Below the pieces are notes generated by a model. The model did not search any database and had not been told where the DNA came from. It saw only the letters and a list, made by a program, of their open reading frames with translations. From assembly GCA_902772725.1 (NCBI GenBank), contig CACYBS010000005.1, positions 1 through 40,296 on the forward strand: 40,296 bases of DNA. The letters run 5' to 3'. Of this stretch, positions 2,568 through 38,890 are shown in pieces. The position numbers and the translations under genes are program-made. The first letter of the stretch is position 1; each line of letters starts with the position of its first letter. The DNA comes from Erysipelothrix rhusiopathiae. Lineage in GTDB: Bacteria; Bacillota_I; Bacilli_A; Erysipelotrichales; Erysipelotrichaceae.

Positions 2568-2595
2568 AAAAGGAATAGAGATTTCTCCCTATTCC
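2566..2595 (-). terminator. Intrinsic terminator of glmS
   Basis: GGAATAG (2572-2578) pairs with CTATTCC (2589-2595). On the minus strand the hairpin is followed by a run of six T (2571-2566). The glmS stop codon TAG lies inside the stem. On the plus strand there is no T-run after the hairpin, so it serves the minus-strand gene. Confidence 0.8.
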
Positions 2596-4400
2596 ACAGT
2601 TACCGATTTGGCAAGGTTGCGTGGTTTATCCACATCGCAGCCTTTTTCTTTTGCGGCATAGTACGCAATTTCCTGTAACAGAATCGTTACCGGAACACAG
2701 GCTAAGATTGGATGTACCTGCGGTACATATAAAACTCTTTCAAAGCCGGTTACATCCTGCCCGCGATAAGTAATTAGTATCACCTTGGAGCCGCGCGCAA
2801 TGGTCTCTTCAATATTGGAGATTGTCTTGGCGGCCACATCCGGCTGGGTCGCCAGAGCCACTACAACGGTATCTTTTTCAATCAATGCGATCGGGCCGTG
2901 TTTTAATTCTCCGGCGAAATACGCATCGGCATGAATATAAGAAATTTCCTTTAATTTAAGCGCACCTTCCAAAACGCTGAAATAGTCTAACTGTCTTCCG
3001 ATAAAGTAAGCATCCTTCTGTTCTTTCAACAATAAGGCATATTCCTTTACCGTATCATGCATATCCAGCATCTGTTTGACATATTCCGGCATCTTCTTTA
3101 AGTCCTGAATCAAATCTTTCGCACAATCCGGAATTCTTCCAACCAGTTCTGTTAACTTTAATACAAGACATACCAATAATACCAGCTGTGTGGTATAGGC
3201 TTTTGTACTGGCCACCGCAATTTCCGGTCCGGCTGCTGTATATAAAGTCACATCGGATAATCGCGATAGAGAAGAGCCTAATACGTTGGTAATGGATAAA
3301 GTTGAGGCATGATTTGCCTTGGCAAGCTTCATCGCTGCCAGAGTATCCGCAGTTTCACCGGATTGTGATACAAAAATACACAATGTATTTTCATCCACAC
3401 GATAATCTCCGTATCGATATTCACTGGCCGGCATGCAGTACGCCGGAATATCAATCCATTTTCTAAATAAGGCATGAGCATATAAAGATGCATGATAAGC
3501 CGTTCCGCAGGCGATAAAATAAACCTGATTCAATTTTTTCCAATCCATCGGTAAATCTTTGATTTCCGGAATCGAAATTCCGTAATCAAATCTTCCGCGT
3601 AATGTTTCACTGATCACATAAGGCTGCTCATACATTTCCTTTTCCATAAATGTATCAAAGCCACCCTTTTGGGCTGCCTGCATATCATAAGGAATATGAA
3701 TCCATTTTGGTTCAACCGGCTTACCATCAAATGTAAACACTTGAATACCTTCCGGTTTAAGAATGGCCATCTGCCTGTCTTCTAAAGCACAGATATCCTT
3801 TGTATAATTCAATACCGCCGGAATATCGCTGGCACAGAAGGATGCACCATCAATATGGCCTAACACCATCGGGCTTTCCTTTTTGGCAACATAGATACAA
3901 TCCGGGCTGTCTACCGATGCCACACAAAGGGCAAAACTGCCTTCTAAATACGCTACGGTATGTTTTAAAGCTTCAAACATATCACCGCGATAATAATAAT
4001 CAATTAAATGAACAATAACTTCGCTGTCGGTCTGCGATACAAAATGATACCCATAGCTTTTCAACATATCCTTGATGGTTTGATAATTTTCAATGATTCC
4101 GTTATGAACAATTGAAATCGTATTGGATGCGTTGGTATGGGGATGGGAATTCATATTGCTGGGGATACCGTGGGTAGCCCACCTGGTATGTCCGATTCCT
4201 GTTGTCTGAGGATAATGTCCTTGATCCAGCTGTTCCTTCAAATTGGTGAGTCTTCCCTTTTCCTTCACCGTATACAAAGTCTTGTCATCTACCAGGGTTA
4301 CGCCGGCTGAATCATATCCGCGATATTCCAGCTTTTCCAAACCCTGCAACAAAAAGGATAAAGCTTCTGCTTTACCGGTATATGCAGTAATTCCGCACAT
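2589..4400 (-). CDS. glmS: Glutamine--fructose-6-phosphate aminotransferase (isomerizing)
   Basis: This enzyme makes glucosamine-6-phosphate from fructose-6-phosphate and glutamine, the first step towards UDP-GlcNAc for peptidoglycan and teichoic acids. The N-terminal glutaminase domain starts MCGITAYTG, where Cys2 becomes the nucleophile after Met removal; EYRGYDSAGV and GIGHTRWATHG motifs follow. Two SIS sugar-isomerase domains occupy the second half, with FVSQSGETADTL and STKAYTTQ. The C-terminus ends KPRNLAKSVTVE, as usual. The frame is open for 51 more codons upstream, but that sequence is the glmS ribozyme; the start at 4400 is set by the obligatory MCGI terminus. Its GGAGG ribosome binding site is buried in a hairpin. 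Length (603 aa) is normal. Confidence 0.97.
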   Translation of the reverse strand: MCGITAYTGKAEALSFLLQGLEKLEYRGYDSAGVTLVDDKTLYTVKEKGRLTNLKEQLDQGHYPQTTGIGHTRWATHGIPSNMNSHPHTNASNTISIVHNGIIENYQTIKDMLKSYGYHFVSQTDSEVIVHLIDYYYRGDMFEALKHTVAYLEGSFALCVASVDSPDCIYVAKKESPMVLGHIDGASFCASDIPAVLNYTKDICALEDRQMAILKPEGIQVFTFDGKPVEPKWIHIPYDMQAAQKGGFDTFMEKEMYEQPYVISETLRGRFDYGISIPEIKDLPMDWKKLNQVYFIACGTAYHASLYAHALFRKWIDIPAYCMPASEYRYGDYRVDENTLCIFVSQSGETADTLAAMKLAKANHASTLSITNVLGSSLSRLSDVTLYTAAGPEIAVASTKAYTTQLVLLVCLVLKLTELVGRIPDCAKDLIQDLKKMPEYVKQMLDMHDTVKEYALLLKEQKDAYFIGRQLDYFSVLEGALKLKEISYIHADAYFAGELKHGPIALIEKDTVVVALATQPDVAAKTISNIEETIARGSKVILITYRGQDVTGFERVLYVPQVHPILACVPVTILLQEIAYYAAKEKGCDVDKPRNLAKSVTVE

Positions 4401-4429
4401 AAAAAAACCTCCATTTCTCATCATGGAGG
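4401..4429 (-). promoter_or_regulatory. Hairpin plus U7 that buries the glmS ribosome binding site
   Basis: On the minus strand CCTCCAT (4429-4423), an 8-nt loop, and ATGGAGG (4414-4408) form a perfect 7-bp stem. Seven T follow (4407-4401), then the glmS ATG. The 3' arm holds the whole GGAGG Shine-Dalgarno sequence. The structure looks like an intrinsic terminator and a ribosome-binding-site sequestrator at once, placed directly after the ribozyme. The pairing is seen in the sequence; the regulatory role is inferred. Confidence 0.6.
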
Positions 4430-4566
4430 ATACCAAGCGGTTCTGTTCAATCTTCACAGACTGTTTTTGTCCGCTTTTTAAAGGTCGTATCAACCTCCGG
4501 GTCACCCGCCGAATCTTTCGAAAAACCCGGTCCTCGTCAACTTGAAAATTCAAGTCCTGGCGCTAT
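4429..4566 (-). ncRNA. glmS ribozyme / riboswitch
   Basis: The minus-strand leader of glmS carries the hallmarks of the self-cleaving, glucosamine-6-phosphate-dependent ribozyme. The cleavage site is in AGCGCC (4564-4559), with the cut expected between 4564 and 4563. Then come GGACTTG, TTGACGAGG, the CCGGGTTTTTCGAAAG and TCGGCGGGTGACCCGG core, and an AGGTTGATACGACCT stem. An AAGCGG/CCGCTT pair closes the P4-like arm. GATAC in the small loop can pair with GTATC near 4429-4434, which fits the P3.1 pseudoknot and marks the 3' end. When glucosamine-6-phosphate is high, the RNA cleaves itself and the downstream message is lost. The class is certain; helix assignments are approximate. Confidence 0.95.
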
Positions 4567-4595
4567 CATCTACTTTTCTCCATGATACAGAAATA

Positions 4596-4623
4596 ATTAT
4601 AATGAAAACTCATTTTCATTCAA
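4596..4623 (-). promoter_or_regulatory. Promoter of the glmS transcript
   Basis: TTGAAT (4623-4618) and TATAAT (4601-4596) are separated by 16 bp on the minus strand. The predicted start near 4589 leaves about 25 nt before the ribozyme cleavage site, as is usual for glmS leaders. The spacer contains a perfect 7-bp inverted repeat (4602-4608 with 4613-4619). Confidence 0.75.
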
Positions 4624-38657: not shown

Positions 38658-38890
38658 GTCAAAACGAAGAGAAGGAAAAGTAATCCTAAAACTGATTTTA
38701 GAGACGATATGGATGGTGAAAATATCGACAGAGCATGGATGAAAAGCACCTTTGAGTAATTCGATGAATTCAGTAGTCGAATTCGGTACATACCGTTATC
38801 ATGTCGAGAGATCTTAAGTTTTTTAAGGTAAGAAGGGTGGCAACGCGAGACATCGTCCCTTTATGGTGATGAGGTCTCTTTTTATTTGGC
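38658..38890 (+). ncRNA. T-box riboswitch for serS (tRNA-Ser, specifier AGC)
   Basis: The leader senses uncharged tRNA-Ser and controls termination. Stem I shows AGAGAAGGAAAAGTAAT near its base, and AGAGACG and GGATGGTGAAAATATCG in the distal arm. The specifier loop GAAAAGCACCTTTGAGTA places the codon AGC (Ser) at 38745-38747. A further AATTCGA/TCGAATT hairpin follows (38758-38783). The T-box AAGGGTGGCAACGCG is at 38833-38847; its UGGC bulge can pair with a GCCA acceptor end, as expected for tRNA-Ser with discriminator G. The competing terminator uses GAGAC (38847-38851) and GTCTC (38874-38878), followed by TTTTTATTT. This accounts for the whole gap between the LysR gene and serS. Confidence 0.93.

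Follow-up and report, generated by a model that had tools for sequence, protein, structure and literature searches.

The glmS ribozyme is known from textbooks as a riboswitch that lacks an expression platform and in which a cut is simply followed by decay. The cut leaves an mRNA with a 5'-OH end, which RNase J1 degrades. Two reviews describe this as release of a ~25-nt leader followed by RNase J1 decay (PMC11476745; PMC11477304). A study that sought an expression platform for glmS (NAR, June 2026; PMC13273304) modelled the post-aptamer sequence and found terminators but no covarying overlap between aptamer and platform; the leader apparently lay outside the modelled sequence.

Here we analyse a 40,296-nucleotide stretch of Erysipelothrix rhusiopathiae DNA (the window), whose glmS ribozyme is like the described ribozyme-riboswitch (RF00234; Winkler 2004, Collins 2007, McCown 2011) in core, cleavage site, P3.1 and gene context, and adds to it a helix between the leader and the 3' side, which we name P0, and a hairpin that sequesters the Shine-Dalgarno (SD) sequence, with one strand common to both. 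Translational OFF riboswitches, with their exchange between anti-SD and anti-anti-SD, likewise set SD access by three mutually exclusive strands, but their refolding is ligand-induced and reversible, whereas here the anti-sequestor would be covalently cut off, one way for each mRNA. Riboswitch platforms built on intrinsic terminators also place a hairpin and U-tract after the aptamer, as is the case here, except that in this locus the terminator arm would be formed by the ribosome-binding site (RBS), which immediately precedes the ATG, while the position of the antiterminator would be upstream of the aptamer.

The glmS leader and its hairpin in the window

The ribozyme stands upstream of glmS on the minus strand, where ATG 4400-4398 opens a frame that matches the TIGR01135 equivalog at 727.6 bits (cut-off 418). 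A covariance search with the glmS model, which the preliminary description of this DNA had proposed, identified the ribozyme at 93.2 bits (Rfam RF00234; E = 1.6e-20; gathering threshold 37), and the P3.1 pseudoknot is present (Table 1). GlcN6P-dependent self-cleavage is ascribed to this ribozyme by homology, and its cut position is one that we take over from established knowledge of glmS.

Table 1. Features of the glmS locus in the window
Feature	Position	Strand	Basis
glmS (glutamine--fructose-6-phosphate transaminase)	2589..4400	-	TIGR01135
U7 tract between SD and ATG, terminator-like	4401..4407	-	terminator scan
OFF hairpin CCTCCAT/ATGGAGG with SD GGAGG (4412-4408)	4408..4429	-	folding, comparison with relatives
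Switch strand: GGTATC (P3.1 3' strand) plus CTCCATGAT (P0 3' strand); doubles as anti-SD strand of the OFF hairpin	4420..4434	-	
glmS ribozyme	4424..4575	-	RF00234 match
P3.1 5' strand GATAC (4491-4487; P3 loop), partner GTATC 4433-4429	4487..4491	-	sequence
glmS ribozyme cleavage site A4564 ^ G4563	4563..4564	-	homology, Rfam alignment
P0 5' strand ATCATGGAG, upstream of cleavage site, proposed anti-sequestor (anti-anti-SD)	4578..4586	-	complementarity; covariation in relatives
Predicted glmS promoter: TTGAAT 4623-4618, 16-nt spacer, TATAAT 4601-4596	4596..4623	-	10/12 consensus matches; pattern only

Direct reading of the minus strand confirmed the hairpin of the preliminary description: CCTCCAT (4429-4423) and ATGGAGG (4414-4408) form a perfect 7-bp stem, base C4429 is common to its 5' arm and the P3.1 3' strand GGTATC (4434-4429), and its 3' arm contains the glmS SD, followed by seven T (4407-4401) and then the ATG. 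Exact in all of these elements, that account was nevertheless incomplete, as it lacked the competing leader strand at 4586-4578. The loop measures 8 nt (GATGAGAA), and the isolated hairpin reaches -10.9 kcal/mol (z = -3.5), with 0/200 shuffles as stable. A terminator scan also picks up the hairpin together with U7, a GC-containing stem followed by a U-tract, although the stem has only 4 G-C pairs.

Over 9 bp, the leader strand ATCATGGAG is perfectly complementary to CTCCATGAT (4428-4420), a stretch that comprises most of the 5' arm of the hairpin and part of its loop. P0 and the SD hairpin are mutually exclusive, positions 4428-4423 being common to both. P0 lies at the predicted mRNA 5' end, because the -10 box TATAAT ends at 4596; the Rfam model covers only about 12 nt of the leader. 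A candidate mini-ORF in the leader (GGAG, 8 nt, ATG 4569), which spans the cleavage site, was dropped because relatives do not conserve it. Elsewhere on the minus strand, a terminator-like hairpin at 4673-4653 lies 3' of the upstream, parB-like gene and sets it apart from the glmS promoter, and the window also holds a T-box leader at 38658-38863 on the plus strand (RF00230, 138.4 bits).

Covariation of P0 across relatives

Of the 273 genomes of the family (f1), 108 yielded glmS ribozymes, as did 150 of 316 genomes of an order-level set that includes a second family, f2; further families were drawn from the class. Among named species, the nearest GlmS proteins are encoded by Holdemanella porci and H. 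biformis, and a protein scan of genome contigs gave four loci, two of them in Holdemanella. Leaders and 3' flanks were extracted from the ribozymes of these relatives, and in an unanchored test leader positions -36 to -8 were scanned against the whole transcript. Three families contributed 91 anchored ribozymes, and in 78 of these the best leader complement started at the strand adjoining P3.1, against an expectation of 6.6. By family, this was the case in 38/43 for f1, a set picked by presence of the P3.1 strand plus a few hand-anchored members, and in 34/42 for f2 and 6/6 for f9, neither of them selected for P0 (position-based expectations: 3.2, 3.0 and 0.4). Most often, P0 stood at an offset of 0 from P3.1 (51 cases). 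In 84 of 88 P0-bearing relatives, the P0 strand is preceded by a -10-like hexamer at a distance of 3-16 nt, usually 6-7 nt, a spacing that places P0 at the predicted mRNA 5' end in these species as well.

P0 strands differ completely between relatives yet remain complementary, as illustrated by ttattgcgaag with CTTCGCAATAA (L008), gctttcaag with CTTGAAAGC (L128), ggcacaactt with AAGTTGTGCC (L170), atattgcgaa with TTCGCAATAT (L005), gtcatgaag with CTTCATGAC (L015), gtgtgttaaaaaa with TTTTTTAACACGC (L144) and gctctctaa with TTAGAGAGC (L163). In a swap test, in which a ribozyme's own leader was ranked against foreign ones, 44 of 56 representatives reached p <= 0.05; a less curated version of the test gave 13/18 for f2 and 3/4 for f9, and none for f13 and f12. 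Among 22 strands that were below 60% likeness to one another, own partners scored 20.5 on average versus 11.5 for permuted ones (z = 13.5; 0/20,000 permutations). Judged from this complementarity and covariation, P0 almost certainly exists. It was not found in f13, f12 or one Clostridium, nor in a large share of f1 whose ribozymes have no P3.1 hexamer; where f1 ribozymes lack this strand, the best leader matches were scattered.

Several other leaders and loci came to light in these genomes. Where Erysipelotrichaceae glmS ribozymes have no P0, an SD-like GGAG(G) is frequent close to the 5' end of the mRNA, on the leader side of the cleavage site (L046-L049, L051, L052, L064, L066, L070, L075, L077, L086, L088), recalling 5' stabiliser SDs. 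The window's own assembly, which has 5.5% contamination, contains a second glmS-type ribozyme, L002 (G000:C317:585-733, minus strand), upstream of nagB (TIGR00502). A start similar to that of this nagB follows the ribozymes L043 and L067, and L065, L069, L071, L072, L074, L087, L089, L097 and L100 resemble these three ribozymes. The L072 and L089 leaders (GAGAGAAA/GAGAGGAA) pair with TTTCTCTC just after P4. One f9 genome holds its glmS ribozyme in a second copy (L193, G372:C24), with no glmS start in the stretch read.

Predicted sequestration of the Shine-Dalgarno sequence

In 67 of the 75 P0-bearing f1 and f2 sequences, the minimum-energy fold pairs the switch strand with at least 3 of 4 SD bases, and complementarity between switch strand and SD exceeded that of shuffled strands (Stouffer 10.6, 36 representatives). 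Relatives without P0 had no such complementarity beyond shuffles (mean z -0.05). Moreover, the predicted SD accessibility of the cleaved form was below 0.15 in 37 of 42 f1 sequences with P0 versus 4 of 44 without it (Fisher 3e-14, for species that are not independent and with no correction for phylogeny). The preliminary description had staked its reading on conservation of the hairpin arms, and this predicted occlusion of the SD is what most relatives with P0 display. The SD hairpin is genuine and conserved; the overlap of P0 with the anti-SD is conserved too, and P0 and this overlap occur together.

The co-variation of CCTCCAT with ATGGAGG that had been anticipated did not reach significance beyond the fixed SD core (z = 1.2), in a test whose positive control, P3.1, covaries among relatives at z = 5.4. 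This outcome is expected if the ribosome fixes the SD sequence. Paired changes that are suggestive were seen as GGCATCCTCC with GGAGGATGTT in L042, L045 and L054, as GGTACCCTCC with GGAGGGT in L013 and L018, and as GGCATAACTTCAT with ATGGAGGTATGTT in f2; they indicate that the hairpin reaches into the P3.1 strand in many species, where it would also compete with that strand.

Most members of f9 have, immediately 3' of P0, a strand that pairs with the start codon, for example CCACACGCAA with TTGTGTGTGG in L170; an element of this kind, right after P0 and complementary to the GTG start codon region, is seen in L163, L170, L171, L174 and L175. Family f13 has an anti-SD (AGCAGCTC with GAGTTGTT) without detectable P0, and in L164-L167, L169 and L177 the anti-SD AGC(A/G)(G/A)CTC, pairing with GAGTTGTT, is conserved downstream of the ribozyme.

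Folding of the window RNA from 4588, intact, gave -65.5 kcal/mol for the P0 state versus -64.9 kcal/mol for the SD-hairpin state, and the cleaved RNA formed the SD hairpin only. The final folds start leaders at P0 and keep P3.1, a design chosen after the first folding result had been seen; they take no account of tertiary contacts or of stacking between P0 and P3.1. In them, predicted SD accessibility in the window fell from 0.77 intact to 0.00 cleaved; in the relatives its mean fell on cleavage from 0.33 to 0.11 (f1) and from 0.46 to 0.25 (f2). Exceptions such as L009, L053, L060 and L122 favour the SD hairpin even when uncleaved, and L144, L152 and L155 move in the opposite direction on cleavage. 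The first nested folding, with a fixed 32-nt leader, gave almost no switch and was replaced, as that leader held untranscribed promoter DNA. RNAduplex sums, by which the intact form was more stable in 75/75, were not relied on, as they are crude and the window's value of -21.4 takes in bases probably upstream of the start site.

Self-cleavage as a candidate switch

From sequence comparison and folding models, we propose that this glmS ribozyme probably has an expression platform and that self-cleavage is what switches it. The P0 5' strand, ~10 nt at the very start of the mRNA, would pair with the strand that follows P3.1 immediately on its 3' side, and this latter strand would also serve as the anti-SD arm of the hairpin hiding the glmS SD. 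In the intact mRNA, P3.1 and P0 would form, such that the anti-SD is occupied, the SD free and glmS ON. At high GlcN6P, the ribozyme would cut between the P0 5' strand and its own core. We infer that the leader, now a separate ~25-nt fragment, would be displaced, that the switch strand would then pair with the SD in vivo and the resulting hairpin block translation, and that the U-tract may also terminate transcription if the co-transcriptional cut is fast enough; the switch would come on top of the degradation of the 5'-OH mRNA by RNase J. Its direction fits GlcN6P repression of glmS. Counting against it, the folds do not yield a clean switch in every relative, the SD hairpin shows no covariation outside its invariant SD core, and after the cut the 9-bp leader may remain paired for some time.

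The preliminary description had envisaged a second layer of regulation coupled to the ribozyme, a ribozyme-attenuator hybrid with a terminator or translation block whose folding competes with ribozyme folding or depends on it. The second layer is supported, but the main competitor of the hairpin is the P0 leader strand, not P3.1 alone, and the competition is better recast as cleavage removing an anti-sequestor, which leaves the hybrid idea partly right.

One alternative, doubtful but able to coexist with the cleavage switch, is transcription attenuation, in which the hairpin and U7 would act as an intrinsic terminator before the ATG and co-transcriptional cleavage would remove P0 as antiterminator. 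The pattern is terminator-like: among the 27 SD-led ORFs of the window, from which the background was drawn, glmS alone has a T-run of at least 5 before its ATG, and such runs lie between SD and ATG in 30/42 (f1) and 21/40 (f2) relatives with P0. However, 14/52 f1 relatives without P0 carry them as well, and about half of f2 lacks them (e.g. L121, L128, L161), most of these still with an anti-SD; by this comparison, the U-tract is unusual and partly conserved, less so than the anti-SD. In one review, the B. subtilis ribozyme is reported to cleave co-transcriptionally (PMC11476745), but the few G-C pairs of the stem and the short time window for the decision argue against attenuation. We rank RBS occlusion as the shared mechanism, with termination a possible addition in the window's clade.

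It is unlikely that P0 has only a structural or protective role, closing the ribozyme by stacking on P3.1 and tucking the mRNA 5' end into a duplex, which would favour ribozyme folding or shield the triphosphate end from RppH/RNase J and make the SD overlap incidental. The abutment of P0 on P3.1 and its beginning at the predicted transcription start agree with such a role, as does f9, which has P0, yet whose anti-start-codon element overlaps it by only ~2 nt. A purely structural helix, however, predicts neither the complementarity of the P0 3' strand to the SD in f1 and f2, far beyond shuffles, nor the rarity of SD sequestration where P0 is absent. That this is an ordinary glmS ribozyme acting by mRNA decay only, with an SD hairpin arisen by chance, follows the published view of glmS and the failure to find expression-platform covariation in PMC13273304, but is highly improbable given the covariation of P0 and the conserved anti-SD overlap.

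Extending the cleavage switch beyond the window, we lean slightly towards a distinct and widespread glmS architecture in Bacilli, in which cleavage would irreversibly release a 5'-terminal anti-sequestor strand, so that the RBS (f1, f2) or the start codon (f9) is occluded and transcription perhaps terminated, besides decay. We found no published description of P0; its novelty is provisional, and an earlier account may exist in McCown 2011, Collins 2007 or Lou and Woodson 2024. If the proposal is true, it would offer a design rule for ribozyme-gated RBS switches, and whether glmS ribozymes ever use a platform could be tested directly in species that can be cultured, Holdemanella biformis among them. 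Should P0 act in this way, the cut made by the ribozyme would double as a conformational switch and the leader would be a functional part of the ribozyme, such that glmS would be silenced at once, with no wait for a nuclease.
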